Below, piece after piece: positions 4,752 through 47,384 of a stretch of DNA of 51,173 nt. How positions within the stretch are numbered: the stretch's first letter is position 1; each line of letters starts with the position of its first letter. The notes under the pieces are model-generated. The model ran no database searches. It was given only the letters and a program-made list of their open reading frames with translations, and was not told the DNA's origin. The translations under genes were made by a program, and so were the position numbers. Source of the DNA: Micromonospora sp. CPCC 205371 (lineage in GTDB: Bacteria; Actinomycetota; Actinomycetes; Mycobacteriales; Micromonosporaceae). The stretch spans positions 1 through 51,173 of the forward strand of contig NZ_JAIBNX010000036.1 in NCBI RefSeq assembly GCF_026130045.1, given 5' to 3'.

Positions 4752-5351
4752 TCAGGGCAGCGCGGGCACCTGGCGGGCGCCGCTGATCACCTTGTCGATG
4801 AACCCGTAGCGCACGCCCTCTTCGGCGGTGAACCAGCGGTCACGGTCGGCGTCCTCGACGATCTGCTCGTACGTCTGGCCGGTGTGCTGGGCGATCATCT
4901 CCAGCAGCATCCGCTTGGTGTACACCATCTGCTCGGCCTGGATGGCGATGTCGGCCGCGGTGCCGCCCATGCCGCCCGAGGGCTGGTGCATGATGATCCG
5001 CGCGTGCGGCAGCGCGTAGCGCTTGCCGGGCGTGCCGGCGCAGAGCAGGAACTGGCCCATCGAGCCCGCCATGCCCATGGCCACAGTGGACACGTCGTTG
5101 CCGATGAACTGCATCGTGTCGTAGATGGCCATGCCCGCGTACACTGAGCCGCCCGGCGAGTTGATCCAGAGGCTGATGTCGCGCTCGGGGTCTTCGGCGG
5201 CGAGCAGCAGGAGCTGGGCGCAGATCCGGTTGGCCACCTCGTCGGTGACCTCGCTGCCGAGGAAGACGATGCGCTCCTTGAGTAGCCGGTTGTAGACAGA
5301 GTCGTCGAGGGAGGCGGCTGCTGAGGCACCGCCGCGGGCGTGGGTCGTCAT
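4752..5351 (-). CDS. clpP: ATP-dependent Clp protease proteolytic subunit (stand-alone paralogue)
   Basis: ClpP peptidase of 199 aa. The triad is Ser97 (GMAGSMGQ), His122 (IMHQPSGG) and Asp171 (ADRDRWF), the same spacing as classical ClpP. ClpP assembles into tetradecamers that degrade substrates unfolded by ClpX or ClpC. I start it at the ATG giving MTTHARGG; the frame is open further upstream but without family similarity. Actinobacterial housekeeping clpP1-clpP2 normally lie as a pair near tig and clpX. Here there is one copy, no partner and no ATPase, so it is probably an accessory paralogue, as Streptomyces clpP3-clpP5 are. It lies 59 bp downstream of the NB-ARC/TPR gene and may be read from that operon. 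Confidence 0.93.
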
Positions 5352-5410: not shown

Positions 5411-7681
5411 TCAGTCGGTCAGGCGATGGTTGGCCTCCGCGGCGCCTTCCTCGTCGCCGACCTCCTCGCAGACGCCTGCGGCGTCCTGCCAGCGGTCGCG
5501 GGCGCGGGTCGGGTGGTCCATGGCGAGCTCGGCATCGCCGAGGTGGAGAAGGGTACGGCCGAGCGCGGCGTCGGGGCGGCGGTGGGCGCGCAGCCGCAGG
5601 GCCTCGGTGAGCAGCTCGCGGGCCGGCTCGCCGCGCGGCGGGTCGGTGTTGACCATGGCCGCTCCGGCGTTGAGGAGGGCCGCCGCTCGCCCCGCTGGGT
5701 CGTCGATCGTCTCGTACACCTCCAGCGCCGCCGCCCACGCGTGCGCGGCGTCCAGGTGCTCACCGAGCCGCCACTGTGCGAGCACCAGGTTGGTCAGCGC
5801 GGCCGCGTACCCGCGCCGGTCGCCGGCCGCCTCGAAGGCGTTCGCCGCCTGCACGAGGTGGTGCCGGGCCTTGGAGGGCTCGCCGCGGGCCAGGTAGGCG
5901 GCGCCGAGCCCGAGATGGGTGAGCGCCTGGCCGGCGCGGTCGCCGGGGGAGCGGTGCTGGCGGGCGCGGTGCAGGTGCTCGATCGCCGTGTCGACCTCGC
6001 CCTGGTCGAGCAGGGCAAGGGCCAGGTTCGTGCGGGCCTGCGCCTGCCCGCGCCGGCCGCGTTCGGTGACAGCCAGCGTCAGTACCGCGGCCGCGCCGTG
6101 CGGGTCGCCCCGGCGGCGCCGGATCACGCCGAGCTCGTTGTGCGCCCAGCCGGCCACGACGCTCCGGTCGCCACCCAGCCGGGTGCCGAGCGCCGCCTGG
6201 CACACCTGCTCCCACTCGTCGGTGCGGTTCTCCGACGCGTACCAGGCACACAACGCGACCGCGAGCCGGAACCACCATCGGCGTACCCGGCGCGGCAGCG
6301 GATCTGCGAAGGTGGCCGGCCCGTCGGGTGAGGAGGTGACCAGCGCGCGCAATAGGTCGTGGTGCAGGACGAGCCAGTCCTGGTCCTGCCGCTCGGCCTG
6401 GCGGGCCAGGTGCCGCATCAGCCGCGCGTACGCCCAGATCCTGCGCCGCGCCGGCTCGTCGTGGCGCAAGTGCAGCCGGGCGTACCCGGACAGCAGCGGC
6501 CGCACCTCGTACCGCCCGCCCTCGGCAGCGGTCACGAACCCGCCGTTGGCGAGCTCCTCCAGCGCCTGGTCGGGATGGCGGCGCAGCGCGGCGATGGCCT
6601 GCCGGTCTAGCGGCCCGGGCGCCAGCGACAGCAGCCGGAACAAGCGGCGGGCCGGCCCGCTGAGCGCGCGGTACGCGATGTCGCGCTCGGCGAGCAGCGG
6701 CAGCGCCTCGGCGTGCGGCACCTTCTGGTGCGCCGGGGCGGTGACGACGTGCCGCAGCGTCGCCAGTACCTCTTCGGCGCGCCAGCCGCGGCGACCGATC
6801 TGCTGCCCGAGGGCGCGGATCGCGTGCGGCTGCCGGCCACACAGCTCCACGAGGTCGCTTGTGGACGGCTCGCTGGGTGCGGTGCGGCGTCCGGCGGCGG
6901 TGCGGGCGTCGGCGAGCAGCTTGACCGCGTCGGTGCGGTCGGGCTCGCCGAGCCACCGCACGGCCACACCGTCGAGAGTGGACAGGCCGGGTGCGCCGGC
7001 CATCAGCAGCCGGGCCTGCGGCGCGGGCGGCAGCAGGTGGCGCACCTGAAGTGGGTCGGCGACGTTGTCCAGTACCAGAAGCACCTTGCGCTCGGCGAGC
7101 CGTGTGCGCAGCTCGGCGCCGGTCGCGGCGAGGTCGGCCGCGCGGGGTGAGCGCGGTGGGCGGGCGCCGAGCTTGCGCGCGACCGCCGCCAGCACCTGCC
7201 GGGGCCGCATCGGCCGGCCGTAGGCGCGCAGGTCCAGGTACATCTGCCCGTCGGGGAAGCGATCCCGCACCGTGTTGGCGGCCTGTACCGCGCACGCCGA
7301 CGTGCCGACGCCGCGTCGCCCCACCAGAGCGACCGCGTGCTCGGCCTCCAGCGCCTCGCGCACCCATTCGACGTCGGCGTCCCGCCCCGCGAATCCGTAC
7401 GTGTACGGCAGGTCGGTGGGCACGCCGGCGCGCTGGCGCGGCACCGGTGGTGGCGGCTCCTCCCACTCGGTGGCCCGGCGCTTGCGGAACTCCAGCGCCA
7501 GCAGCACGATCGCGGCGACCGCCGCGAGCCCGCCGGCGACCAGCCACGTGACCGTGCCGAGGTTGCTGCCCACGGCGTCGGCGATGAGGTCGGTGGCGAT
7601 GCCGCCGCTGAGCGAGCCGATGACGACGGCGGCGGCGCAGGCCCCGTGCCAGCGCGGTGCGGGCTCCCGCGACGCGCTCAT
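5411..7681 (-). CDS. Membrane-anchored NB-ARC/TPR protein with defective P-loop
   Basis: This is a 756-aa STAND-like protein. Residues 11-33 and 43-65 form two membrane helices, and a NB-ARC-type domain follows at about 95-400. Its P-loop reads GRRGVGTS (121-128), so the invariant Lys is Thr127. Walker B is normal (LLVLDN, 201-206). A winged-helix-like region spans about 380-450, and TPR-type helical repeats run from about 520 to 756. NB-ARC proteins normally use nucleotide exchange as a switch; this one probably cannot bind or hydrolyse ATP in the usual way. The start ATG overlaps the permease stop (ATGA), so the two are translationally coupled. The anchor and coupling suggest it works at the membrane with the transporter-like proteins upstream. 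Role unknown. Confidence 0.85.
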
Positions 7682-9423
7682 TTCTGCGCCCCCGACACGA
7701 GACCGCCGACGACCTGGCGGCGGAACGCGATGACCAGTGCCAGGGGCAGCACCGAGGCGACCACCGATCCAGCGGCGACCAGGCCGCTGTTGGACACGAA
7801 CTGCCGCGTCTGCCCGTACAGTGCCAGCCCTAGTGGCACCGCGTCCGGCCCTCCGAAGTGGAGGCCGACGACGAAGTCGTTCCACACCTGCACGAACTCC
7901 AGCACGCACACCGCTACGACCGCCGGTACCGTTGCCGGCGCGAGGCGGGCCAGCACGCTCCACTCTCGACGACCGGCGAGGCGGGCCTGCCGCACCCGGG
8001 CCATCGGCACGTCGGCGAGTGCGTTGCGCAGCACCAGCACCGCGAAGGGCACGCCCAGCGCCACATGTACCAGTGCCAGCCCCACGAAGGTGCCGGCCAG
8101 GCCGGCCCTGTCGAGCACCTCGGTGACCGGCCCGGCGATGACCTGTACCGGCACCACCGCCGCGCCGAGCAGCAGGATGCCGGCGGCCTGCGCGCCCGGC
8201 GGCGACAGCCACGCCAGCGCGTACGCGGCCAGCAGCGCCACGACGAGCACGGTGCCCGTGACGACGGCGGCGAGCGCGGCGGTCAGCGCCAGCGATCGCG
8301 CCAGCCCGCCGCCCTCGAACAGCGCGCGGTACGACGCCAGGCCGATCGGGCCGGTCCACCAGCCGCGGGTGGCCGCGTCACGCGGCGCGTGCAGCGACGT
8401 CGCGACGAGCACGACCAGCGGGATCGCCCACCAGATGGCGGCGGCGGGCGGCAGCAGCCGCCGCACCAGCCGGGGTGCCCGCCACTCGGAGCCGGTTCCG
8501 CGCGCCGGAGCGATGGGTGTGGGCGGGGGCCACGCCTGGCGTGTCCACAGTGCTGCGGCCAGCATTCCCAATAGGACGACCGCGAGCCACAGCACGCCCA
8601 GCGCCGCCGACGGCCCGGTCACCGTGCCGCTGGAGGTCTGCCAGATCCGCACCGGCGCCACCATCGCCTCGTCGATGACCGATCCGGGCGCCATCACCAG
8701 GATCAGGTCGAAGGTGCGCGAGGTCGCCAGCGCTACCAGCGCGAACACGATCGCGACCGTGCGCCGCAGCAGCGGTCGCCAGCGCGCGTCGCGGAAGACG
8801 TCGAGCCGGGTGCCGCCGTACGCGCGGACGGCGTCGGCCAGCGCGAGCGGCAGCGCGTCGAACGCGGCCCGGAACACCAGCACCGCCAGCCCGACCCACG
8901 CCCACACGAACGCGGACATCAGCGCGATCGTGATCAGCTCCGGCCCGAGCCACAGCGCGCCGGTCAGCCAGGTGGCCGTGCCCCGCTCGGGATCGGGGTC
9001 GTAGAGCAGCCGGAACGTCACGCCCGTCACCACGAGTGGCAGCGCGATCGGCGCGACGAGGATCAGCGTCACGATCCGCCCGCTGGAGGAGCGCCGCGAC
9101 GCCGCCGCCAGCACGAAACCCAGCACCGTCACCACGGCCGGCACCACCATCGCCCACAGCAGCGTCCGGCCGAGGACGCTCCAGCCGTCGTCTGACAGCG
9201 CGGTGCGGAAGTGTTCCAGGCCAACGAATTCGCCGTCCGCGGTGGCGCTGGCGTCGCCGGTGCGCCGCACCGGCCAGTGCACGAGGCCGCCGGGCCGCGG
9301 CGCCCCCGGGGGCAGCAGCGCCGTCGTGGTGCCGATGGCCGGGTACGCCCTGCCGCGTCGCGCCGGACCGACGTCGTCGAGGACCACGGTCTCGCCCAGC
9401 AGCACGCCGCGTTCGGGGTTCAT
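7678..9423 (-). CDS. Single-chain fused ABC permease (MalF-MalG-like halves)
   Basis: One 581-aa polypeptide contains two binding-protein-dependent permease domains. The first half spans about residues 66-292 and the second about 325-581, joined by a Pro-rich linker at 295-320. Half one has FVGLEHF and an EAA-like loop at about 194-212 (LADAVRAYGGT). Half two has the degraded loop RVRQARLAGRRE (about 476-487) and the usual VWNDF motif. Such permeases are normally two separate proteins. The first 65 residues are hydrophilic, so the N-terminal helix usual in MalF-type permeases is missing. ATGA overlaps connect it with the binding protein upstream and the NB-ARC/TPR gene downstream. Substrate unknown. 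Confidence 0.85.
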   Translation of the reverse strand: MNPERGVLLGETVVLDDVGPARRGRAYPAIGTTTALLPPGAPRPGGLVHWPVRRTGDASATADGEFVGLEHFRTALSDDGWSVLGRTLLWAMVVPAVVTVLGFVLAAASRRSSSGRIVTLILVAPIALPLVVTGVTFRLLYDPDPERGTATWLTGALWLGPELITIALMSAFVWAWVGLAVLVFRAAFDALPLALADAVRAYGGTRLDVFRDARWRPLLRRTVAIVFALVALATSRTFDLILVMAPGSVIDEAMVAPVRIWQTSSGTVTGPSAALGVLWLAVVLLGMLAAALWTRQAWPPPTPIAPARGTGSEWRAPRLVRRLLPPAAAIWWAIPLVVLVATSLHAPRDAATRGWWTGPIGLASYRALFEGGGLARSLALTAALAAVVTGTVLVVALLAAYALAWLSPPGAQAAGILLLGAAVVPVQVIAGPVTEVLDRAGLAGTFVGLALVHVALGVPFAVLVLRNALADVPMARVRQARLAGRREWSVLARLAPATVPAVVAVCVLEFVQVWNDFVVGLHFGGPDAVPLGLALYGQTRQFVSNSGLVAAGSVVASVLPLALVIAFRRQVVGGLVSGAQK

Positions 9424-10670
9424 GCCGTCGCCTTCTTCGCGGTCGCGTTGAGCTGTGCGACGGTGTCGTCGACGGCGCTCCGCAGGTCGGCCCGCGGTGT
9501 GGTGACCGCCGCGAAGAAGTCCTGCAGGATCTTCCACACGCCCTGACCGTCGAACCCGGTGAAGCTGCCCGGCAGCTGGTCGGACAGGTCGAAGCGCAGC
9601 CCGTCGACGGGTTCCCGGACCTCGGCCGCCAGGTCGCGAGGCTGCCCCGCGGGGTAGAAGCCGAGCGGCACCAGCCGGTTGGGCGACAGGTACCCGCCGC
9701 TGGCGATCCACGGCCGGAACGCGTCGGACCCGGCCAGCCACCGCACCAGGTCGCGCCCGCCGGCCGAACCGCGCAGCACGACCGCGGCGTCGCCGCCCAC
9801 GACCAGCGGCTGCCGGCCGGCGAAGGCGGGGAACCGGAACGTGCGCGGCGCCTCGTCCTGGAACTGCCGTGCGACGCCGGCCACGAAGTCGCCCTCGAAG
9901 ACGGTGCACGCGTCGCGGCTGGCCACGACCTGGATGACCGACTCCTCGTTCTGGGTCAGCAGCGCGCGCCGCCCGCCGCCGGGAAAGGCGCCCGGGACGC
10001 TCCACATGCGAGCGAGGGCGGCCAGCGCGCCGCGCACCTGCGAGGCGTCCCACAGCGGCTTGCCGGCGGCCAGGTCCTGGTACAGCCGCTGGTCGTCGAA
10101 GCTGGCGAGCAGGTTCTCCAGCCAGTCGGTGAGCACCCAGCCGTCGGCGGCCCCGATGGCCAGCGGTGCCGGACCGCCGCCCGCCGCGCGGGACTCCACC
10201 ATCGCGAGCAGGTCGGACCAGCTGCCTGGCGGATCAGTCAGCACGGACGGCAGGTGCCAGAAAAGGGACTTGTGCGCCGCCTTGACCCAGGCGCCGTAGA
10301 GCACACCGTCCACTGTGATCAGCTCTGTCCACGCTGGCGCGTACCGCTCACCCAACTCGCTGTCGAGCGGCTCCAGCCAGCCGTCCCGGGCGTACCCGGC
10401 GACCAGTCCCGGCCGGGGCAGGATGGCGACGTCGGGGCGGGCGCCGGCCCGGTCGCGGGCCCGCAGCAGGGCGTCGATGTTGTCGCCGGCGCTGATGACG
10501 CGCACGGGTTCCGGGTATCCCCGCACGACGTCGCGGAAGCGTGCCAGCTCCCCGCCGCTCCACACGACGGCGACCTCCAGCGCACCACCGCCACGGGTGC
10601 AGCCCGTGGTCGCGGCGGTCGCGGCGCTGGCCGCCGCCGCCGCGCGCAGCAGCGTCCTTCGTTTGATCAC
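9420..10670 (-). CDS. Extracellular solute-binding lipoprotein (Tat-type signal)
   Basis: This 416-aa protein belongs to the family-1 ABC binding proteins that deliver sugars or similar solutes to MalFG-type permeases. The N-terminus has KRRTLLR followed by an Ala-rich stretch and a lipobox-like TTGC with Cys24, indicating Tat export and lipid anchoring. The GTG start overlaps the stop of the ATPase-like gene (GTGA), which fixes the start and shows coupling. The C-terminal part has helical segments typical of the fold. It is the most normal-looking member of the operon, so ligand binding may be retained even if powered import is not. Confidence 0.87.
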   Translation of the reverse strand: MIKRRTLLRAAAAASAATAATTGCTRGGGALEVAVVWSGGELARFRDVVRGYPEPVRVISAGDNIDALLRARDRAGARPDVAILPRPGLVAGYARDGWLEPLDSELGERYAPAWTELITVDGVLYGAWVKAAHKSLFWHLPSVLTDPPGSWSDLLAMVESRAAGGGPAPLAIGAADGWVLTDWLENLLASFDDQRLYQDLAAGKPLWDASQVRGALAALARMWSVPGAFPGGGRRALLTQNEESVIQVVASRDACTVFEGDFVAGVARQFQDEAPRTFRFPAFAGRQPLVVGGDAAVVLRGSAGGRDLVRWLAGSDAFRPWIASGGYLSPNRLVPLGFYPAGQPRDLAAEVREPVDGLRFDLSDQLPGSFTGFDGQGVWKILQDFFAAVTTPRADLRSAVDDTVAQLNATAKKATA

Positions 10671-11290
10671 GCCACCACCGTCATCGTGCGGTCGGCGGCG
10701 GCGGCCACGTCTTCGTCGGCGGTGCAGACCAGGACAGCCATCGCGGGCGCGGTCGGCAGGCAGGCGCGGGCGAACAGGTCGCGCAGCCCCACCGCGGTCT
10801 CGACGCCCGGCGGCAGGTCGACGACCAGCACCTCGGGCAGGCACACCGCCGCACGGGCGACCGCCGCGCGCAGCCGCTGCCCGTCGGAGAGCTGATGGGG
10901 GCGCAGGTTGAGGGTCGGCACCAGTTCGAGGCGGGACGTCAGGGTGGCGGCCCAGTTGCGGGACAGCTCCCGCACGGTCTCCCGGTGCCGCAGCCCGTAC
11001 TCCACATTGGCCCGTACCGTCAGATGCGGCAGCAGGCCGCCGCCCGCCGGCACGTACCCGATCTGCCGCTCGGCGGGCGGCTGGCTGGTTACGTCACGGT
11101 CGCCGACGACGACCCGGCCGGACACAGGCGCGGCGAGGCCGGCGACCGTGCGGGCGACGGCGGTGGCGACCTCCGGATCGGCTGGCACAGCGGCCAGCTC
11201 ACCAGCGCAAACCCGCCCCGAAAGTCTTACCCGCGCAGCGCCATCCGGCACGCCGACGACGACTTCGTGCAGAGCCAGCAGACCGACCAC
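10667..11290 (-). CDS. Degenerate ABC ATPase-like protein (no catalytic motifs)
   Basis: The order and spacing match an ABC nucleotide-binding domain, but the key residues are gone. Where Walker A should be, after GEL, the sequence is PADPEVATA (residues 36-44), with no Gly-rich loop and no Lys. The Q-loop position reads YVPAGG (no Gln). The signature survives as LSDGQ (134-138). Walker B reads VLVVDLP (154-160), lacking the catalytic Glu. The H-loop reads CTADEDV, Ala instead of His. The frame is nevertheless intact and coupled to the next gene. I start it at GTG 11290, which overlaps a GGGGGGAGG stretch; upstream in-frame sequence has no family similarity. It probably has a structural or regulatory rather than ATPase role. 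Confidence 0.78.
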   Translation of the reverse strand: MVGLLALHEVVVGVPDGAARVRLSGRVCAGELAAVPADPEVATAVARTVAGLAAPVSGRVVVGDRDVTSQPPAERQIGYVPAGGGLLPHLTVRANVEYGLRHRETVRELSRNWAATLTSRLELVPTLNLRPHQLSDGQRLRAAVARAAVCLPEVLVVDLPPGVETAVGLRDLFARACLPTAPAMAVLVCTADEDVAAAADRTMTVVA

Positions 11291-12119: not shown

Positions 12120-12917
12120 ATGCGGGTGGCCGGACGGGTCGTGGTGGTCACGGGTGGGGCGGGCGGCATCGGTGCGGCGCTGGCCCGCCGGTTCGCCGCT
12201 GAGGGCGCGGCCGGTGTGGTGGTCGCCGACATCGACGGGGCCGCGGCCGACGCCGTGGCCGGGCCGCTCGGCGAACGCGCCATCGCCGTCGAGGTCGACG
12301 TCGCGGACGAGGATCGGGTACAGGCGCTCGTGGCGGCCGCCCAGTCGCGGTACGGTCGGATCGACCTGTTCTGCGCCAACGCTGGCATCACCGTGGGCAC
12401 CGGCATCGAAGCGTCCGGTGCCGAGTGGGCGCGGGCGTGGGCGGTCAACGTGCTCTCCCACGTGTACGCGGCACGGGCGGTCCTGCCCGCGATGCTGGCG
12501 CGCGGCGAGGGGTACCTGCTGCACACCTGCTCCGCGGCCGGCCTGCTCACCGCGGTCGGCGACGCCCCGTACACGGTCACCAAGCACGCCGCGCTCGGCC
12601 TGGCCGAGTGGCTCGCGATCACGTACGGCGACCGCGGCATCCGGGTCAGCGCCCTGTGCCCGCAGGGTGTGCGCACGCCGATGCTCGACGACGGGCTGGC
12701 CGCCGGCCACGTGGGTGCCCTGGTCACGGCCGCGTCCGGCGCCGTACTGAGCCCCGACGAGGTGGCCGGGGCGGTGATCGACGGTCTGGCGGCCGAACGC
12801 TTCCTGATCCTCCCGCACCCTGAGGTAGCCGCCTACACCCGCAAGAAGGCGGCCGACCCCGACGCCTGGCTGTCGGCGATGCGAGGGCTGGCAGCGCGGG
12901 CGCAGGAGATGCCCTAG
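12120..12917 (+). CDS. Short-chain dehydrogenase/reductase (SDR)
   Basis: Classical SDR of 265 aa, NAD(P)-dependent. The Rossmann motif TGGAGGIG is at residues 11-18, NAG at 87-89, the structural Asn at 110, Ser138 in CSAAG, and Tyr151/Lys155 in YTVTK. An Asp after the second strand (VVVADID) favours NAD(H) over NADP(H). The substrate cannot be told from the sequence. GGAAGG at 12105-12110 supports the ATG. It is a single gene; its stop overlaps the stop of the convergent transglutaminase-like gene by 3 bp. Confidence 0.92.
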   Translation: MRVAGRVVVVTGGAGGIGAALARRFAAEGAAGVVVADIDGAAADAVAGPLGERAIAVEVDVADEDRVQALVAAAQSRYGRIDLFCANAGITVGTGIEASGAEWARAWAVNVLSHVYAARAVLPAMLARGEGYLLHTCSAAGLLTAVGDAPYTVTKHAALGLAEWLAITYGDRGIRVSALCPQGVRTPMLDDGLAAGHVGALVTAASGAVLSPDEVAGAVIDGLAAERFLILPHPEVAAYTRKKAADPDAWLSAMRGLAARAQEMP

Positions 12918-15124
12918 CGGCGGCGGTGCCAGCGCAGCGGGCCGGGGTGCAGTGACCACAGCACCCGGCGCCACCATGAGCGCCTTGCCCGCAGCTCGCT
13001 CGCGTACGCCACCGCTTGCGCGCCGGCCCGCTCGGCCTGCGCCTCGTCGGTGGCGAACGGCGCGAACGTCGCCACGTTGACCGCCTCGGCCAGGTCGACC
13101 AGGGGCGGCGCCGCTGACCGTATCCGCGTCGCCCGCCGGCCCTCGGCGGCGACCGTGGCGTGCGCGGCGACCTCGGTGGCGTCCAGGTGCGAGCCCGCCG
13201 GCCGCCCGGCGAGGCGGAGCGCGTCGTTGACCTCCAGCCAGGCCCCGGCGATCCGCTCGGCCGGCGGACCGTGCTCCAGGCGGCGCCGGCGCAGCGACCG
13301 CCGCATCACCAGCACGACCAGCGCCGCCCCGCCCACGAGGAGCACCGCCAGCCCGGTGACACCACCGGCGACCATCGCGCCGGTGAGGCCGCCACACCTG
13401 GCGCGCCCGGAGGGGGCCGGGGTGGGGGGCGCCCGCGCCGCCGCGGGGGGCCGGGCCCCCGTGGGCGGCTCGGTGGGGTCTTCGGTGGGTGGCTTGAAGT
13501 CTTCCTCGACCGGGCGGGGCGTGGTGTTCGGCTTCGGCATGGGGTCGAACGGCACCCAGCCCACGCCCTCGAAGAGCACCTCGGGCCAGGCGAGCGCGTC
13601 GGCACCGCGTACCGGTCCGGTGCCGGCCGACTCGAAGCCCACCACCACCCGGGTCGGCAGGCCCATCAGCCGAGCCAGCAGCGCGTACGACGCCGCGAAC
13701 TGCTCGGAGGTGCCCTTCTGGCCGCCGCCGTTGCTGGGGCCGAAGAGGAAGAAGTTCAGGTTCGGGTACGCGTGGCCGCTCGGGGAGTCGGCCACCACGC
13801 GGTAGTGCGTGGCGAGGAACTCCTCGATGGCGACCGCCCGCTGGTAGGGCGCGCCGTTTTCGTCGGCGATCTGGTCGGCGAGGCTCTGGATGCGCTCCGG
13901 CACCTCGTCGCCGATCTTCAGCATCCGGGCGACCGCGTCGCCGGACGGCACGTCGGCCGCTGTCAGCAGGCCGCCGTCGGGACGTTCGCGCGTGGACGTG
14001 ACCGTGTACCGCAATCCGGCGGTCAGCCCCTCGGGGCGGATCAGCGTGCCGGTCGCCGGGTCGTATGCCACCCGGGCACCGTCGACGGACGTCGGGGTGG
14101 CCGCCGCGGGCAGCAGCCGGCCGGTGAGATCGGCGATCGTGATCTGCTGCGTGACGGTGTCGACCTGCGAGCCTGGAACGACGCTGGGCGTGGGCAGTAT
14201 CCGGCCGGCGTTGCGGTAGGTCGCGCCGACCCGCCAGGTGATCCCGTCGTAGTCACTGAGCACGGCCAGCCGGATTCGCACGTCGCCGCCGGGCTGCGAG
14301 TCGAGGTCGAACAGGCGCTGGTCGGGGTTGAGCGCCCAGCCGGAGATGCGGATCAGCGGGTTCTCGTCGAGGCTTTCGACCTGCGGCGGCTCCACATATC
14401 GCCGGGGGTCGACCGGCTTGGTGGCCACCTGGGCGGCCACGACCGGACCGACGGCCGCCGCGAGCGCCACGATCACCGCCAGCCCTGCCGCGGCGCCGGC
14501 CGCCACGCGTACCCGGATGGCTGCCTGGACCGGCGCGGCGAGCTCGCCGGACGCGGCGGCCGGCGTGCGACCCGTCGCCGCCAGACCCACAGCGGCGACC
14601 GCGGCGAACGCGAGCGTCGGCCACACCGCGGCCTCCGCGTTGGGGCCTACGACGTAGAGCGCCCCCGCGTAGAGCAGCGCGGCGGGCGCGTATCCGAGCA
14701 GCACCCGGCCGGCGCGGTGGGCGATCTCGGCGCCGGCGAGCCCGGCCAGCCACGCGCCGACGACCGGCACGAGCACGGTGTCTGGCGTCGGCTCGACCGG
14801 GATCATCGCGGTGAGCAGCCGGGGGATGCCGTTGCGGGCCGCGTCGGTGAGCACCTCGGCGAGGCTGCCGGGCAGCTGCGCGCGGCGCGCCGTGACCAGC
14901 ACGGCCAGCAGCGTGTACGCCGCCATGCCGGCCACGGACAGCGGTGCGACCAGCCACGACGGGAGCCTGCGGGTGGCGGCGCTGATGCCGACCGAGCCGA
15001 CGGCCGCACCGGCCACCAACTGGGGGAGCAGCGAGCCGGCGTAGATGCGGCCCAGGGCCACGCCCGTCAGGGCGATGAGCACGGCCAGCGTCACGGGTAC
15101 CGCCGCCGCCTTGACGAACCTCAC
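12914..15124 (-). CDS. TgpA-like transglutaminase-fold membrane protein lacking Cys/His
   Basis: This 736-aa protein has an N-terminal block of membrane helices (about 1-235, DUF3488-like), an extracytoplasmic transglutaminase-like domain (about 405-540), a Pro-rich linker, another membrane helix (about 575-600) and a cytoplasmic tail. In active relatives the core reads G-x-C-E-Q and D-A-H-A-W. Here these are GTSEQ with Ser473 and DALAW with Leu511, while the Asp in WVPFDP (D527) remains, so it is probably not a thiol transglutaminase. I believe similar Cys-less proteins occur in other actinomycetes, but could not check. It overlaps the DUF58 gene by GTGA and is last of a four-gene operon. 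Confidence 0.88.
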   Translation of the reverse strand: MRFVKAAAVPVTLAVLIALTGVALGRIYAGSLLPQLVAGAAVGSVGISAATRRLPSWLVAPLSVAGMAAYTLLAVLVTARRAQLPGSLAEVLTDAARNGIPRLLTAMIPVEPTPDTVLVPVVGAWLAGLAGAEIAHRAGRVLLGYAPAALLYAGALYVVGPNAEAAVWPTLAFAAVAAVGLAATGRTPAAASGELAAPVQAAIRVRVAAGAAAGLAVIVALAAAVGPVVAAQVATKPVDPRRYVEPPQVESLDENPLIRISGWALNPDQRLFDLDSQPGGDVRIRLAVLSDYDGITWRVGATYRNAGRILPTPSVVPGSQVDTVTQQITIADLTGRLLPAAATPTSVDGARVAYDPATGTLIRPEGLTAGLRYTVTSTRERPDGGLLTAADVPSGDAVARMLKIGDEVPERIQSLADQIADENGAPYQRAVAIEEFLATHYRVVADSPSGHAYPNLNFFLFGPSNGGGQKGTSEQFAASYALLARLMGLPTRVVVGFESAGTGPVRGADALAWPEVLFEGVGWVPFDPMPKPNTTPRPVEEDFKPPTEDPTEPPTGARPPAAARAPPTPAPSGRARCGGLTGAMVAGGVTGLAVLLVGGAALVVLVMRRSLRRRRLEHGPPAERIAGAWLEVNDALRLAGRPAGSHLDATEVAAHATVAAEGRRATRIRSAAPPLVDLAEAVNVATFAPFATDEAQAERAGAQAVAYASELRARRSWWRRVLWSLHPGPLRWHRRR

Positions 15125-16269
15125 CAGCGCTGCACCCCCTCCCAGCGCGCGGCGAACTCGGGCCCGTCGGCGGCGTCGAGCACGGCCACGCCCTCGCCCC
15201 CGGGCGCCGTCGGGCCCCGCCCCCCCGACATCCCGACCACGACCGACGGGTACGGCCCGCGCAGCGCCCCGACGAGCCCCAGGTCGGCGCGGCCGCCGGG
15301 ACCAGTCAGGAACACGAGCGTGTCGCCGAGCCGGTCGCGGCGCAGCCGGTCGGTGGTGCCGCGCAGGTCGCCGTCGCCGTGCAGTTCCGCCTCGGCGAGC
15401 CGGTCGAGGAAGTCGCCGCCGCTGGTGCCGCCGCCGCTGGCCATCTGGAGCGTGACCGGCACGTCTTCGCGAACCGCGGCGGCGACGATCGACGCGGCGG
15501 CCTCGCACGCGGACTCGAACGTCTCCGCAGTGCCGCCAGGGCCGCCGGTGACCTTCGGGTGGGCGGTGGCCCGGTCGTCGAGGAGCACGACGATGCGCGG
15601 CAGGCTGGTGTCGAGGTCTTCGCGCACCATCAGCTCGCCGACCTTGGCGCTGGTGCGCCAGTGCACGCGGCGCAGTTCGTCGCCGACCACGTACTCGCGC
15701 AGCGAGTCGAACGTGATCGTGCCGTGAGGCACCTTGTCGACGCGGCCGTCGAGGCTGCGCGCCACACCGGCCGGCACCGCGGTGAGCAGGTGGATGCGCG
15801 GGTGCACCCACACCTTCGCCGTGTCGCCATGCGAACGGGCCAGCGAGACCAGCCCCAGCGCGTCGCGCCGGGTGACCCGCAGCGGGCCGACCGGGATCAC
15901 GCCGCGGCGTTCGGTCGGCACCGGGTAGCTGACCGTCGTGTCGTGGCCGGGCCGCAGCCGCAGCAGCGGGACCGGAACCGGCCGCTGGCCGCACCGGTCT
16001 TCGGCGATCAGGCTCGTCGACCCGACCCGCCCGCTGTTGCGCACGGTCAGCGTCATCTTGGCCGCCTCGCCGCGCGCCACCCGGTCGGGGTCGGCGACCC
16101 GGCCGACGTCGAGCCGGGGCCGCCACGCCGCGTGCGCGAACGCGCAGCCGCCCGCTATCGCCGCCGCGCTGCCCAGCAACGTCAGCTCCGGGTACCCGAA
16201 CCAGAAGCCGGCGACCAGCAGCGCGGCCGCGCTCGCGAGCAGGCCGATACCGCGGCCAGTGAGCCTCAT
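15121..16269 (-). CDS. DUF58 domain protein
   Basis: This 382-aa protein has two N-terminal membrane helices (about 8-46), a beta-rich region, and the DUF58 hallmark LREYVVGDELRRVHW followed by a vWA-like C-terminal part. DUF58 proteins are regularly encoded between MoxR AAA+ ATPases and transglutaminase-like proteins and are thought to form a membrane complex with them. The reaction is not established. Its stop overlaps the GTG of the next gene; MoxR lies 13 bp upstream. Confidence 0.9.
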   Translation of the reverse strand: MRLTGRGIGLLASAAALLVAGFWFGYPELTLLGSAAAIAGGCAFAHAAWRPRLDVGRVADPDRVARGEAAKMTLTVRNSGRVGSTSLIAEDRCGQRPVPVPLLRLRPGHDTTVSYPVPTERRGVIPVGPLRVTRRDALGLVSLARSHGDTAKVWVHPRIHLLTAVPAGVARSLDGRVDKVPHGTITFDSLREYVVGDELRRVHWRTSAKVGELMVREDLDTSLPRIVVLLDDRATAHPKVTGGPGGTAETFESACEAAASIVAAAVREDVPVTLQMASGGGTSGGDFLDRLAEAELHGDGDLRGTTDRLRRDRLGDTLVFLTGPGGRADLGLVGALRGPYPSVVVGMSGGRGPTAPGGEGVAVLDAADGPEFAARWEGVQRW

Positions 16270-26179: not shown

Positions 26180-27235
26180 TCATGCCGGCCGATCTTGGCT
26201 CGGAGGCGCCAGCACCTCCACGAGAAACTCCAAGCGCAGGGCCTCTTGAGGGACTCTGCGGCCTGAGGTGAGCAGCGCCTGTGCGTCGTTGCGGATCGAC
26301 GCTGGTAGCCATTCGACCAGTCGGCGAGCCTCGGCTTCGGCCACCGTGGGACCCGGGCGATGAGGTTGCCGGACGAGTAGTTCCCAGAGCCGCTCGGCCG
26401 GTTGTGCAGGCGTACCAACGCGTTCGGCGACGGCGCAGGCGGTGGCGGCGATGGCCAAACCGGCGGGATCGAGGTCGCCGAGGTAGTCGAAGCGGGTGAC
26501 GGTGAACGGGAGGGTTCGCAGTGCCTCCAGCGGGGCGGTGTTGCGCCCCTGGACCCACGCGACAGCGGCCCACTGGGGATGGTTGTCCGTACGTAGGACG
26601 CGCAGCAGGGTGCGGAATGTGGCGTGGTTCTCCACGCAGACAATCGGCCCCGGCGTCCCCACGACAGCAGTGGTGGGCTCCCATGTCAACGGGGTGGGAG
26701 TCCGGTGGCACCGCAGGAGGTCGAAGGTTAGCCGGCCGGGCCCCCATAGCGCGGCTCCACCGCGGGGTGGTGTCGAGTCGAAGGCTTTCTCGTCGCCGAG
26801 TAGTTCGTAGGCGCGCTCTGCGGCTTCGGCGGCGGGGACGTCGCCGCCGTTGGTACGGCGTAACCAGTCGTTGACGGCGAGCAGCACCTGGCGTTGGGCC
26901 GTGGACAACAGGAGATTCGCGGCCCAGGAGGCGAGCTCGTCCCGTAGCGGAACGCCGGCAGGGCGTAGCCGGTCGGCTGAGGCTGCTCTACGGGGAAGCG
27001 TGATCGTCTTGGGCAGGACGATGCGGCCGCGTTGCACGGTCGTGGTGCGGGCCGCGGTCCAGAGCCCTTGTCGCTGTCCCTGATCGATCGTCTCGCGGAC
27101 CAGTTCGGGTACGTCGGCGCCATCGGTGTGCGGTGGGGCCTCCCGGACGGCGACGGCGACGTCGTCGATATGGCGGCGCCCGCCGCGGCCACCCGGGTCG
27201 AGGCGGACGAGTAGCTGATCCAGGTCGATGCTCAC
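26180..27235 (-). CDS. jetD: Wadjet-like JetD, Toprim nuclease subunit
   Basis: This 351-aa protein has a helical N-terminal domain (about 1-185) and a C-terminal Toprim domain with Glu202 in CVENHATF and Asp254/Asp256 in YLGDLDPAGLA, the metal-binding pattern of JetD (DUF2220/DUF2399-type). In Wadjet systems an SMC complex (JetABC) extrudes small circular DNA and JetD cleaves it, limiting plasmids. The GTG overlaps the jetC stop (GTGA), as expected for the jetC-jetD order. Sequence and catalytic residues appear intact, but without JetA and JetB the system is probably inactive. Confidence 0.8.
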   Translation of the reverse strand: MSIDLDQLLVRLDPGGRGGRRHIDDVAVAVREAPPHTDGADVPELVRETIDQGQRQGLWTAARTTTVQRGRIVLPKTITLPRRAASADRLRPAGVPLRDELASWAANLLLSTAQRQVLLAVNDWLRRTNGGDVPAAEAAERAYELLGDEKAFDSTPPRGGAALWGPGRLTFDLLRCHRTPTPLTWEPTTAVVGTPGPIVCVENHATFRTLLRVLRTDNHPQWAAVAWVQGRNTAPLEALRTLPFTVTRFDYLGDLDPAGLAIAATACAVAERVGTPAQPAERLWELLVRQPHRPGPTVAEAEARRLVEWLPASIRNDAQALLTSGRRVPQEALRLEFLVEVLAPPSQDRPA

Positions 27236-30200
27236 TGCCCCAGGACCGCCGCGACGTCGTGCTGCACAAGCGTGAGGTCGACGATCTCCTTGGAGCCGTC
27301 GTCAATGACAACCACCTTCTCCTTCGAGGATGGGCGTGACCGGCGGGCGAGCATGATCGTCCGGTCGAACATCGACAATGCCCCTTTGTCCTTCGGCGCC
27401 GCGGTGAAGAGCAGCTGTAACCCGAGCTGATCGGCCGCGCGCCGCATGGTGCGGACAAACTGGTCAGCGGAGGCCTGTCCGAAGGGGTTGTCCAGCCAAA
27501 GCCAGCCGATTGAGGTGGTGTCGCCGCTGGCGCGGACGCGGGTCATGGTCGCGTATAGGAGGACACCTGCGGTGACCCGCTGTCCCCCGGAGAAGTTCTT
27601 TAGCTCGGCCACGTCGACGCGATCGAGTGACAGGTCGGTGTGCGGCTTGAGAATGCGCACCCGGAACGGTGACTCGGTCAGTGCGCGGGCGGCGGCGAAC
27701 AGCAGAGATTGCGCGTCGGAGCGGCCCGCCTGCGGGGTGAGCAGGGAATGGACGACGCGGGCGACTCGGTCGACGGCAACCGACTCGTCGTCGGGCAGCC
27801 GGTCATGCTCGATCATGACGAACTGTCGCTGTGACCAGTCGCCGAGTCCGTCGGGCAGGCGGGACTGATTCTGGTAGGCACGGAGCCGGTCGATGGCGGT
27901 CGCCGCTTGAATCTGCAGCATGGTCGCGCTGGTGCGCACCTTCTTGTCATGGCTTTCCAGGTCGTCGCGTAGTGTCGCCGCCCGTTCCTCTAGTTGCAGA
28001 GCGAGGCGTTCGGCCTCCGCAGCGAGCCGTTCGTCGGTCCGCAACCGTGCGAGTAGGTCGAGCACCCGCGGGTCGTTAGCGTCCTCCACCTTGCGGGCCC
28101 GCGGTCCATTGGCGTGCTCGCGAACGCGGCTCGCTGCTGACTGCTGTGCCGTCTTGGCAGCGCTGAACTTGTCACCGCTCTTTCGAAGTCTCTCGGCGAC
28201 ATCCGTGATACGGGCCGTCAGCTGGTCGATGTCCGGCCATCGTTGTCCGGTGATCGCCTTGTCGCTGAGGTGGCGCAGAGGATTGATCGATGCTTCAACG
28301 AGCCGTCGGGACTGCTCGGCGGCCCGCGACTTGTTCTCTTCGCTGGTTGCCAAGCGCTCCTCGGCGCGTTGGGTGGCGAGGAGCTCAGCGGTCAGCTCGT
28401 CGAGTTGCTCGGCGTATCGGTCGGCGTCCGCCGCCTCCACGACCGTCATGGCGGCAGGGAAGCCGTCGACGTCCGGGGACGATTTGTCCGCGGTGTTTTG
28501 ATCGCGGCGGCGGTGTTCCTCCACTGCTTGATCGGCTGTAGCCTTCGCCTCCGCGAATGCCTCTCGGGCGGTTGCCTCCGCCTTAGTGGCCTCCTCGATG
28601 GCCGACTGAACGGCGACCGGGTGGCGGGCGGTGTCGGTATCGGCCAGTTGCTCGGCGAGTCGTCGACGTTGGCGGTCGGCGTCCAGCTTCGCGTCGAGAT
28701 CGGCGACCTTTTCCCGGCCTGTCCGCACTTCTTCGTGCAACATAGGGTCAACGGCTGCGCCTTTGATGGCGTCCCGGACGCTGCTGAGCCGGGCGCGGAT
28801 CGTCGGTTCGTCATCGGCGGGAACCGGACCCTCGGTGGTCGCGGTGAGGGCCGATTCGCGGAGCCTTTCGGCAGCGTCGTCGACCCGCCGCTTCGCTTCG
28901 CGTACGGCCGTAGCTGCCGCCTCTTCCTCAGCGACGAGCCCAGGCCGGCGGTTGATGAGTTCGTCTCGGCGCAGGCGACTGTCGGTGACAGCGCCGCGCA
29001 GCCCAGGTAGCCGCTGTCTGGCCTGCGCAAGTGTGGCCGCGGCGGCAATGACTGGTACGAGCAGGCGTCGCCGCTCGCCGCAGGTCTCCACCTCCTGCTG
29101 AGCCGTCGTTAGGTCGGCCTCGCGAAGCTCCTGGAGCCGGGTTAGTTCGGCGAGCTTGGCGGCGGCCTCGGCCTGCTGGTTCTCGGCCGCCTCACGCCGT
29201 GCGTTCGCCGCCTGCAAACGCTGAGCCAGCTCGGGCCGTGGATCGTCCGGCAGGTCCTTCCACAGGCTCGACAGGTCGGCCTGCAGGTCCCGAAGATCGG
29301 TTGCCGTCGTGGTCGCCACGGCGAGTCGCTCGCCGGCCGTGGAGAGGGACGTGCGTGCGGCGTCGAGCATGTCCTGCGCGGCCTGCCGGTCGTAGATACC
29401 CGGATGCGGGAGTAGGACGTGCGCTTGGGTTCCCGCACCGGCGTGTCCGGTGAGCGCCATGTCGACGCTGGTGACGGCGCCGACCCACAAAGCGACATCG
29501 AGGTCCAGCTCACCGATTGCCGTGATCGCTGCATCGACGAGGTCCGGGTGGGCGATCACCACCCCGGACGCGATCTCGGGACGGGACTCGGCGAAGGCCG
29601 CCGCTACCTCGGGATTCATAGTGTCGGCCAGCCAACGCCAGCCCGGCCAGGCCGGGATCTCCGCAATCTCCTGACAACGACGCGCGGCTTCCTCGACGAT
29701 CGCGGAGGACGGCAACAGGCCGTCAGAACCCACCGAATCGAGCATCCGTTGTGCCGCCGCTACCTCCCCACGAGCCGACTCCGCGTCTGCGTCCGCGGCG
29801 GCGATTCCGGTGCGGATCAAGTCGGTAAGCGGGGTCCGCTGAGCCCACAGGTCGACAGTGGCGGTGTCGCCGAGGATCCCGACGAGCCGGTCATCGTGAG
29901 TCAAGGTGTCGATCCGCCGCGTCACCTCACGTAGCTGACGATCCACGCCGTTCGCGTCGTTGAGCGCGATGCCTGCCCGTCGCCGCGCGTCAGACTCGGC
30001 CTGTTGCTCGGTGCGGGCTGATGCCCGCAGACCGCGTAGGTCGTCTTCGGCGCGCTTGCGGGCGTCCCGGGCGGCCTTGGCCTGAAGGTCGAGGGCCTTG
30101 TCAACCTCAGCTGGATCCGCACCCTCGTCGATCAAGCCCACTTGGGTCGCGTCGTCGATCAGGCGCTCGGCGGCGGTGACATCGGCTTCGGCCTGCCGGA

Positions 30201-31611
30201 CCTGCTCGGTGGCTTTGGCATGGTCCGCGACCGCCTCCTGAAGGTCGCTATCGAGCTGCCCAATCGCTTCTTTGGCCTGGTGCTGCAGCTGTTCGGACTC
30301 GGTTCGGTCGCTCGTTGCTCGGTCACGACGCTCGGTCAGCAGTCGCGCGAGATCCCGGCGGTGGCTGCCTTCCAACCTTCGTAGCTCGGCGGTCTCCTGC
30401 TCGGCCGCATTCAGACGTTCGGTCAGACCGGCCACGTTGCTGGATGCCGTGCGGAATTCCAGGACGGTGGGGACGAGTTGCCAGGCAGCAAGCGCAGCGG
30501 CAGCTTTGTTGCGTTCCCGTTCCAGGGCGCCCGCCCGAGTCCGGGCCTGCTCGGCTTTGATGTGCGCTGCTCGTAACTGCATACGCAACCGGTGAGCCTG
30601 GGCTCGGCGCAGCGTGGCCGTCGCGTCCCTACGTCGCTGATCGTGGTAGCCCTGTCGTTCCGCTGCCGACCTCTGTTCCAGTGTGAGCGCGGCTGCCGTC
30701 ACGTCCGCATCGGCCACGATCGCGCTGGCGTTCGCCTCTGCCGTGGCGACCGCTTGCCGATGGCCGGTGACCTCCTCAAATGCAACGGCCAGACTCAGCA
30801 GCGGATCGGTGAGCCGCTCCCAGAGGTCCATCTCGTCGGCCCAGCGAGGTCGTGCGGCGGCGTTCGTCCGGAGAACGTCGATGCTCTTGGCGATCTGGTC
30901 GACTGTCGAGTCTGGAGTGATGGCGCCGATGAGCCACCGGACGAAGTCGTCCGAGTCGTGGAACCGCATGACCCGGTCGACGCCGCCCTCCGACGCGTTC
31001 ATGACCGTCTGGAAGTGAATCTGTTCCAGGTCGATCCCGCTCGTGCTCAACCATCTACGCCACTCCCTGTGGCGTTCCGAAGGCTCATGTGGGGGCAGCA
31101 CCCCACCGCGCGGCAGCATCGCACGCACCGCCTCGACAAACTGGCCCCGTGTAGTCCAGCGTCCCGCTTCAGTGCGGAAGGGCAGGTTTTCGATAGAAAG
31201 GCCACGTTCGTCGGTGACCCACCCGTAGTAGAAGCGCAGCAGGCGCGAGGGGTTGTCGAGATCCTGAACTCCGTCGCGCCACTGCGCGACGAATCCGACG
31301 ACGATGCGTTGTTGTTCACCGCTGACCACCCGGGTGGCCTGCTCCACCACATGGCAGACATCGCCGCCGTTCACCAACTTTGCCAGAGACCTGTCTGACC
31401 CGCCGCGGATAAAGTCCCGCGTGTCCGGCAGATAAAGGGCGAACCGGAGCGCCGTGATCGTGGTCTTGCCCGTGCCGTTGTCGGCCCACAACGCGGCATG
31501 GCCGGTCGGCTCCAACGGATCGGACCAATTGATGTCCAGCCCCTCCAGACGTGACTCCCGAAAGCCGGCCCCGGAGAGGAAGGTGCGCTCGAGCCGCCAT
31601 CCTGTCTGCAT
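27232..31611 (-). CDS. jetC: Wadjet-like JetC, SMC/MukB-type ATPase
   Basis: This 1,459-aa SMC-like protein has Walker A ADNGTGKT at residues 43-50. Long coiled-coil arms occupy roughly 320-560 and 800-1,200, with a hinge-like region between them (about 600-760). The signature FSGGQRV starts at about 1340 and Walker B reads WLWLDNP (about 1370-1376). The Asp is followed by Asn where most SMC ATPases have Glu; this may be a subfamily trait (DNPxGxAS) rather than damage. It is a DNA-loop-extruding motor in the Wadjet model, and longer than the roughly 1,100-aa classical JetC. ATG chosen for GGGGAGG upstream and the overlap with the jetB stop. Confidence 0.82.
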   Translation of the reverse strand: MQTGWRLERTFLSGAGFRESRLEGLDINWSDPLEPTGHAALWADNGTGKTTITALRFALYLPDTRDFIRGGSDRSLAKLVNGGDVCHVVEQATRVVSGEQQRIVVGFVAQWRDGVQDLDNPSRLLRFYYGWVTDERGLSIENLPFRTEAGRWTTRGQFVEAVRAMLPRGGVLPPHEPSERHREWRRWLSTSGIDLEQIHFQTVMNASEGGVDRVMRFHDSDDFVRWLIGAITPDSTVDQIAKSIDVLRTNAAARPRWADEMDLWERLTDPLLSLAVAFEEVTGHRQAVATAEANASAIVADADVTAAALTLEQRSAAERQGYHDQRRRDATATLRRAQAHRLRMQLRAAHIKAEQARTRAGALERERNKAAAALAAWQLVPTVLEFRTASSNVAGLTERLNAAEQETAELRRLEGSHRRDLARLLTERRDRATSDRTESEQLQHQAKEAIGQLDSDLQEAVADHAKATEQVRQAEADVTAAERLIDDATQVGLIDEGADPAEVDKALDLQAKAARDARKRAEDDLRGLRASARTEQQAESDARRRAGIALNDANGVDRQLREVTRRIDTLTHDDRLVGILGDTATVDLWAQRTPLTDLIRTGIAAADADAESARGEVAAAQRMLDSVGSDGLLPSSAIVEEAARRCQEIAEIPAWPGWRWLADTMNPEVAAAFAESRPEIASGVVIAHPDLVDAAITAIGELDLDVALWVGAVTSVDMALTGHAGAGTQAHVLLPHPGIYDRQAAQDMLDAARTSLSTAGERLAVATTTATDLRDLQADLSSLWKDLPDDPRPELAQRLQAANARREAAENQQAEAAAKLAELTRLQELREADLTTAQQEVETCGERRRLLVPVIAAAATLAQARQRLPGLRGAVTDSRLRRDELINRRPGLVAEEEAAATAVREAKRRVDDAAERLRESALTATTEGPVPADDEPTIRARLSSVRDAIKGAAVDPMLHEEVRTGREKVADLDAKLDADRQRRRLAEQLADTDTARHPVAVQSAIEEATKAEATAREAFAEAKATADQAVEEHRRRDQNTADKSSPDVDGFPAAMTVVEAADADRYAEQLDELTAELLATQRAEERLATSEENKSRAAEQSRRLVEASINPLRHLSDKAITGQRWPDIDQLTARITDVAERLRKSGDKFSAAKTAQQSAASRVREHANGPRARKVEDANDPRVLDLLARLRTDERLAAEAERLALQLEERAATLRDDLESHDKKVRTSATMLQIQAATAIDRLRAYQNQSRLPDGLGDWSQRQFVMIEHDRLPDDESVAVDRVARVVHSLLTPQAGRSDAQSLLFAAARALTESPFRVRILKPHTDLSLDRVDVAELKNFSGGQRVTAGVLLYATMTRVRASGDTTSIGWLWLDNPFGQASADQFVRTMRRAADQLGLQLLFTAAPKDKGALSMFDRTIMLARRSRPSSKEKVVVIDDGSKEIVDLTLVQHDVAAVLGQ

Positions 31612-31836
31612 CAGTCCTCCCCATCGGCCGGCGTGGAGGCGGTTGCGCTGCCGTACAGCCGATCCGGGATACCGGAAGCAGTGATCGTCTGCCACACCAG
31701 GGGGCCGCCGCCGGCCGCCACGTGCGCGCGGAATCGGTCCGTCGAACGCCACACCTTCAAGTCGGGGCGCGGTGCAGGCGCCGTCCGATCCGGCACCAGC
31801 AGACGGAACGCGGCGAGCATCGTCAACGAGTCGCGG
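31611..31836 (-). pseudogene. 3' fragment of jetB-like gene
   Basis: About 75 codons reading IRDSLTMLAAFRLLVP through TASTPADGED end in a TGA that overlaps the jetC ATG by one base, the position jetB occupies in Wadjet operons. Identification rests mainly on position. Upstream (higher coordinates) the frame enters antisense of the RHS gene and loses coherence, so the 5' three-quarters of the gene and all of jetA are missing. Confidence 0.6.
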
Positions 31837-43940: not shown

Positions 43941-43980
43941 AGGGGTGCCCCTCCTGTTCTGGTGACCCCCGGCGTCTCAT

Positions 43981-45411: not shown

Positions 45412-45466
45412 CGGCTACCGCTTTCGGTTGAAGGCCTGCGGAGCGGGCTGTGCCGGGCAGCGGGGG

Positions 45467-46375: not shown

Positions 46376-46377
46376 GG

Positions 46378-47322: not shown

Positions 47323-47384
47323 TGTTTGTCTCTCCAAAGGCGGTGCGCGCGGGGTGCGGACTGGCGCCCGCACCCCGCGAACGA

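Follow-up and report, generated by a model that had tools for sequence, protein, structure and literature searches.

What defines an ABC importer is that it pumps at the expense of ATP. In the genome of Micromonospora sp. CPCC 205371 an operon, here designated A-B-C-D, combines the binding lipoprotein and the permeases of such an importer with two proteins whose nucleotide-binding sites lack key residues, and this raises the question of what a complex of this composition does if it does not pump. The operon is situated within a stretch of 51,173 nucleotides (contig NZ_JAIBNX010000036.1) which is referred to as the window. An earlier note on this DNA had proposed a ligand-sensing membrane complex rather than a transporter, and it is this proposal which the present analysis follows up.

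Organisation of the operon

The four genes (Table 1) are open reading frames without frame breaks in the window, and each junction is a four-base overlap (GTGA, ATGA and ATGA), so that the earlier description of four overlapping minus-strand genes is confirmed exactly, coordinates and overlaps included. The start codon of gene A is GTG, with GGGGGGAG immediately upstream of it; scans for repeats, promoters and terminators yielded nothing useful. Across the 29 complete loci (window included), in which start codons were picked automatically, four-base overlaps occur at the A/B junction in 20, at B/C in 25 and at C/D in 20 cases, i.e. they are frequent without being universal.

Table 1. Position of the A-B-C-D genes and of the downstream neighbour within the window.
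Feature	Position	Strand	Description
A-B-C-D operon	5411..11290	-	
Gene A	10667..11290	-	207 aa, MalK-type pseudo-ATPase
Gene B	9420..10670	-	416 aa, Tat-type sugar-binding lipoprotein
Gene C	7678..9423	-	581 aa, fused SugA-SugB-like permeases
Gene D	5411..7681	-	756 aa, two N-terminal hydrophobic helices, NB-ARC and TPR superhelix, STAND-like fold
ClpP gene	4752..5351	-	next gene downstream, separated from D by 59 bases; considered to be outside the system

Gene A encodes an ABC-ATPase-like protein devoid of catalytic residues

Both by sequence and by fold A resembles MalK-type ATPases including SugC. It matches the Pfam profile ABC_tran at 4e-12 with an alignment which begins only at profile position 26, indicating that the P-loop part is missing. 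The predicted structure shows an ABC ATPase fold (mean pLDDT 91.7), the best structural matches of the model being of the CysA, FbpC, alginate, PotA and MalK types. We compared 32 A proteins, 30 from Micromonosporaceae-type loci (L031 omitted) plus those of Umezawaea L121 and Lentzea L122, with 24 control ATPases, 23 of which are from the own genome and one from L062. The Walker A lysine, the Q-loop glutamine, the Walker B catalytic glutamate and the H-loop histidine are each present in 0/32 homologues, and the second glycine of the LSGGQ signature is found in four of them; in the controls, each of these five residues is present in 24/24. A is thus predicted to have retained the ABC-ATPase fold with none of the four tested catalytic residues, as the earlier note had read it, and lacks the NBD motifs of a type I importer.

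Remnants of the ancestral sequence are visible. The window protein retains an LLPHL segment and, as LSDGQ, a vestige of the signature, while the ALYPHL segment of the control L062 persists in the A family as, for instance, ALLPHL or ALLPQL. The A proteins of L055-L058 possess a nearly complete P-loop in which glycine replaces the lysine (GETGFGGTR, GPSGFGGTT); from its sequence, this looks like an early stage of loss. Most A proteins comprise about 200 amino acids, those of L055-L057 372 to 387. In L031, a relative from the same genus, gene A is broken into two frames near codon 88 (L031:9975-10530), which suggests that A may be dispensable.

The binding lipoprotein B retains the residues of canonical binding proteins

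B matches Pfam SBP_bac_1 at 6.5e-9, and in sequence comparisons NagB2 is its best match, followed more weakly by LpqY. In an alignment of 30 B proteins (L039 omitted) the twin arginines of the Tat signal (R4, R5) are nearly invariant and the lipobox cysteine, C24, is invariant in 30/30. The earlier assignment of B as a Tat-type binding lipoprotein therefore holds, and B corresponds to the extracytoplasmic sugar-binding lipoprotein of a type I importer. Invariant residues were computed over 31 B proteins with one exception tolerated. Of these, 43 are also invariant in 4/4 canonical binding proteins (L061, L062, L065 and L066), among them K..KS..W, DGW.LTD..EN, DF and GD, whereas 15 are family-invariant yet missing from the four canonical proteins. 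The shared residues may line the ligand pocket.

The fused permease C has lost the docking signature for an ATPase

The Pfam profile BPD_transp_1 matches C in two stretches of one chain, the first half of which resembles SugA (4e-12) and the second SugB (1.5e-28). Accordingly, C is the one-chain double permease that had been claimed, and the two permease domains of a type I importer are both present. Its QVWNDF motif is retained. In a tree of second permease halves, 26 fused rows separate from 30 other permeases with a support of 100/100.

The EAA loops of C deviate from those of canonical permeases. The EAA glutamate is missing from both halves in 37/37 members (29/29 of the family and 8/8 more divergent ones), while control permeases of the own genome possess it at position 1 in 13/14 first and 15/21 second halves, four of the six exceptions carrying aspartate. 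In the first half, 26 of the 29 family members have Asp at this position and three have Ser; in the second half, 28 have Arg and one has Asp. The eight members of Pseudonocardiaceae, G412 and Nocardia type carry Arg in the first half and either Ala or Ile in the second. The alignment of the eroded loop is uncertain, most of all for Nocardia. Likewise, the aspartate of the DG pair, strictly conserved in the controls (14/14 and 21/21), is found in 0/29 first and 1/29 second halves, the glycine being mostly retained (26/29 in each half). The EAA loop with Glu and DG, which characterises type I importers and also forms the docking loops of MsiK-dependent ones, is hence absent, and this erosion argues against the docking of an MsiK-type ATPase.

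We would like to mention a peculiarity of the window itself. Where L031 has LLLPAALLLGGLVLWPVLR in the first hydrophobic helix of C, the window has LLPPGAPRPGGLVHWPVRR. Ten clustered amino-acid changes compared with L031 (9244-9312, at the start of C) break this helix; eight of them remove a T base relative to L031, and the cluster occurs in none of 28 aligned relatives. Either a sequencing error at this site or recent damage may explain these changes, which leave the family-level result unaffected.

Gene D encodes a STAND-like protein without the P-loop lysine

In the Pfam search TPR matches of D are above threshold, while NB-ARC remains below it (E 0.004). Residues 77-423, however, match the STAND region of AfsR at 6e-40, and the best PDB sequence matches of D are the solved AfsR chains. 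The P-loop reads GRRGVGTS, i.e. its lysine is replaced by threonine, with the Walker B motif LLVLDN intact in D and conserved in its relatives. Loss of the lysine extends to 29/29 aligned members (28 with GTS, one with GSS) and to 3/3 more divergent ones (L121, L122 and L154), hence to 32/32 altogether, while 28/28 NB-ARC paralogues of the own genome retain it. Even so, the altered P-loop may still bind nucleotide.

Hydropathy reveals two hydrophobic segments at the N-terminus of D followed by RKRR. Since the first 41 residues are poorly modelled in the predicted structure (mean pLDDT 87.3), the assignment of membrane helices is drawn from hydropathy. Among the structural matches listed, 6mfv, whose title names a STAND protein with a TPR sensor, ranks best and is followed by Apaf-1, with Avs3 also listed; normalised to the query, the TM-scores of the 50 listed matches are low for the full-length protein (0.21 to 0.35), so the similarity covers parts of D only. 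With this reservation, D possesses a Walker B motif, a STAND core and a repeat sensor, and the view of D as a membrane-anchored NB-ARC/TPR protein with a Lys-to-Thr P-loop is upheld. Pfam found no DNA-binding domain in D and revealed no effector domain.

Distribution, gene order and selection

A search with C in 200 Micromonosporaceae genomes (E 1e-30 or better) matched 54 genomes. An orthologue of the fused C (rows above 250 bits) is present in 31 of the 200, the own genome included, and is interrupted by contig ends in two of these; the other 23 matching genomes show only weaker matches to other permeases. For comparison we used the 30 other orthologous loci and six additional ones. In 28/28 complete relatives the genes follow the order A-B-C-D on a single strand (two of the 30 loci end inside C at a contig end), which makes 29/29 complete loci if the window is counted. 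Among named loci the order recurs in 47/54 of the Micromonosporaceae type, one of them being L086 of the laboratory strain M. lupini Lupac 08, the remaining seven stopping at contig ends; since the 73 named loci overlap largely with the first genome set, the two counts are not additive.

The distribution is patchy, and within the own genus two of the six genomes listed (G000, G031) carry the operon. Named genomes matching C belong to Micromonospora, Actinoplanes/Amorphoplanes, Rugosimonospora, Actinocatenispora, a Dactylosporangium MAG, Umezawaea, Lentzea and Nocardia. In the order outside the family, full-length, stop-free matches of C were obtained in five genomes (G412, G305, G561, G576 and G625). 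A search of the class with the Lentzea D protein (E 1e-25, 197 genomes) returned the own genome only. A search of the phylum with C (E 1e-35, 296 genomes, at most four candidates scored per genome) returned the own genome and otherwise second-half matches only; as its cut-off missed the Nocardia-type G305 seen in the order, it does not bound the distribution. No match of C was obtained by tblastn in a plasmid collection at E 1e-30, and a plasmid-borne module was rejected on this ground.

Values of dN/dS were calculated according to NG86, which is rough at high GC and was applied to pairs that are not independent. In 15 close pairs outside the window they amount to 0.13-0.42 for A, 0.22-0.70 for B and 0.07-0.26 for C, and in 14 such pairs to 0.11-0.42 for D. 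Comparison of the window with L031 gives 0.38 for B, 0.23 for C, 0.38 for D and, distorted by the frame break, 0.36 for A. Overall the values range from 0.07 to 0.70, mostly below 0.4, and are below 1 for every gene and pair. The motif losses are common to clades in which protein identity to the window is no more than about 30-45%. Fixed across the family and accompanied by purifying selection, they do not result from local decay. The earlier note had already argued that both nucleotide-binding folds are defective in open frames and hence not simply decaying, and had named conserved order, dN/dS and fixation of the losses as points to be tested; all three turned out in its favour, and relatives with intact Walker A motifs and separate permeases, which would have spoken for decay, did not emerge among the 28 complete loci and the 32 proteins compared.

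Nocardia and other divergent members

In Nocardia, B, C and a protein D' are present in 17/17 loci, collinear with the family by tblastn, and A was found near 0/17 of these operons (for L133, the upstream sequence ends 264 bases before B). Pfam recognises TPR in 11/11 scanned D' proteins and NB-ARC in 0/11, so that what is essential in the protein may be its TPR surface. In the tree of second permease halves Nocardia clusters with the A-bearing Pseudonocardiaceae (98/87); A is therefore most simply regarded as lost in Nocardia. The Nocardia B and C proteins have diverged beyond Pfam recognition, as no match was obtained at E 0.1 in 5/5 loci scanned (L124, L130, L133, L134 and L138). In Lentzea (L122:2787-14419) the four-gene operon is flanked by an RNase E/G gene and obg, a neighbourhood which is usually conserved.

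Neighbouring genes

The earlier note had considered the adjacent ClpP as a possible recipient of the signal. Among 36 loci with flanks of some kilobases ClpP occurs in L031 only, where it is located about 3.3 kb beyond D and thus not adjacent. As a neighbour it is unconserved, and the idea of a ClpP partnership fails. Clustering of the flanking ORFs, performed with a crude ORF picker and with one cluster (cluster 2) lumping gene A together with ordinary ABC ATPases, yielded a WYL regulator in nine loci, a 159-aa protein in eight and an FMO-like protein in 16, nearly all from Micromonospora, as well as an SDR in scattered loci. Neighbours are common only within genera or close groups, and no catabolic or signalling gene shared by the operon flanks across genera was found by this clustering. 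PADLOC assigned a generic TPR match to D and a weak mad3 match to A; no defence-specific model was hit, and a known anti-phage defence system is thus unsupported.

Several other loci of the window deserve mention. Two GH32 glycosidases near an ordinary SBP_bac_1 binding protein (41934-48671) look like a normal fructan uptake locus and provide a useful contrast to A-B-C-D. A minus-strand ORF of 1506 codons (27232-31752) without Pfam match at 1e-4 is located beside a plus-strand ORF of 2962 codons (31551-40439), and a TgpA/transglutaminase-type protein adjoins a DUF58 protein (12914-16269).

Relation to known systems

LpqY-SugABC, a trehalose importer of type I (CUT1), is close in that the halves of C are similar to SugA and SugB, B weakly to LpqY and A to SugC. 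In A-B-C-D, however, the permeases are fused, A has about 200 amino acids and no catalytic residues, the EAA glutamates are lost and D is added. AfsR, a SARP-STAND-TPR regulator whose N-terminal part is DNA-binding, shares its STAND region with D, which in contrast has N-terminal hydrophobic helices in place of the DNA-binding part and lacks the P-loop lysine.

A precedent for contact between an importer and a STAND protein is provided by E. coli where, according to PMC10427625 and PMC6468293, MalK in its idle state keeps the STAND regulator MalT at the membrane and lets it go once transport takes place. PMC6468293 also describes the solved structure of PH0952 on which MalT was modelled; 6mfv, the best fold match of D, is presumably this structure. 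As in MalFGK2-MalT, an importer ATPase stands alongside a STAND protein with a TPR-type sensor. Yet MalK works as an ATPase and the STAND protein MalT is soluble and binds DNA, while the sites of A and D lack key residues, and D has membrane helices and, by Pfam, no DNA-binding domain. CebEFG (PMC4890002), an MsiK-dependent actinobacterial importer, resembles A-B-C-D in that no functional ATPase gene accompanies its binding protein and permeases. Its permeases CebF and CebG, however, are encoded separately, and the system is an importer. A-B-C-D has eroded EAA loops and, in 28/28 complete family loci, a gene for a pseudo-ATPase, so that it differs from an MsiK-dependent importer without any NBD-like gene. 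Finally, PMC11109136 describes the S-component fold as common to ECF transporters and to 5TMR sensor kinases (bacterial transceptors), an example of a transporter architecture that occurs in receptors too. Compared with these transceptors, A-B-C-D has a different fold and would be a converted type I importer with a binding protein and a pseudo-ATPase.

Interpretation

Taken together, the retention of binding-protein residues in B and the loss of catalytic and docking residues suggest that A-B-C-D senses something extracellular instead of importing it. We consider it somewhat probable that the operon encodes a conserved actinobacterial membrane receptor complex which is derived from an LpqY-SugABC-like CUT1 importer and does not pump. 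More tentatively, with a probability that we put slightly short of even, B-C-(A)-D may constitute a receptor class that arose from a motor-less ABC importer and signals by ligand-driven conformational change with dead nucleotide sites, Nocardia having discarded both NBDs. Of the earlier receptor reading, the idea of a complex that binds a ligand, does not pump and has D as its cytoplasmic arm agrees best with the data, while a link to ClpP is unsupported. B would bind a carbohydrate-like ligand outside the cell and dock on C, which would relay a conformational change through the membrane without ATP. Where present, A may serve as an adaptor beneath C, and D would be kept beside C by its own membrane helices. 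Much as MalK in its idle state acts on MalT, the complex could then retain the TPR surface of D or set it free, and this surface would bind an output protein. As neither A nor D is expected to turn over ATP, such a switch would be mechanical.

The membrane part could alternatively be a non-signalling scaffold or a passive channel that holds D, whose TPR surface would organise another membrane process with or without control by a ligand. The Nocardia D' proteins with their TPR matches and without NB-ARC agree with this explanation, as does the failure to find a conserved output gene. We nevertheless regard it as unlikely, since it is difficult to account for the canonical residues retained in B without the binding of a ligand.

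Slightly less probable still is that the operon continues to encode an importer powered by an MsiK/SugC-type ATPase from elsewhere in the genome, with A vestigial or regulatory and D accessory. Such sharing exists in Streptomyces, where CebEFG uses MsiK according to PMC4890002; moreover, the canonical binding-protein/permease locus L065 shows no A-type match within its 14,870 bases, and B retains its binding-protein motifs. Against it stand the EAA glutamate (0/37) and the DG aspartate, lost from 29/29 first and 28/29 second halves, both of which are retained by canonical permeases of the same genome. In addition, competition for the same site is to be expected from a pseudo-NBD that is under constraint, as A is. 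The docking loops as they read thus disfavour a shared MsiK-type motor.

That the operon is a decaying importer heading for loss, as the helix-breaking cluster in the window, the broken gene A of L031 and the patchy distribution might indicate, is highly improbable and for the family largely refuted, since the losses are shared by distant clades, A has dN/dS values of 0.13-0.42 in 15 pairs and the gene order is preserved in 29/29 complete loci. Equally far-fetched is a defence or cell-death STAND system with the importer co-opted as its sensor, for although the combination of NB-ARC with repeats in D resembles that of bacterial NLR-like proteins and the list of its structural matches includes Avs3, PADLOC recognises only generic TPR and weak mad3 similarity, an effector domain is absent from the Pfam results and the flanking genes vary between genera.

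Returning to the receptor complex, transporter-derived receptors and contacts between importers and STAND proteins are already known. No account of this operon, or of an ABC importer that depends on a binding protein and whose lack of an ATPase is fixed throughout a clade, was found in the literature searched, which is weak evidence of absence as subscription journals were thinly covered. There is a real chance that A-B-C-D represents a new receptor class. If this is true, the family would show the conversion of an importer into a receptor with apparent natural intermediates: a P-loop with glycine in place of lysine in Actinocatenispora and an actinomycete MAG, the full loss of the motifs in other Micromonosporaceae, and no ATPase-like gene near the operons of Nocardia. 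It makes testable whether the fold of a type I importer passes a signal inward without ATP, and it warns against annotating such genes as sugar uptake systems.
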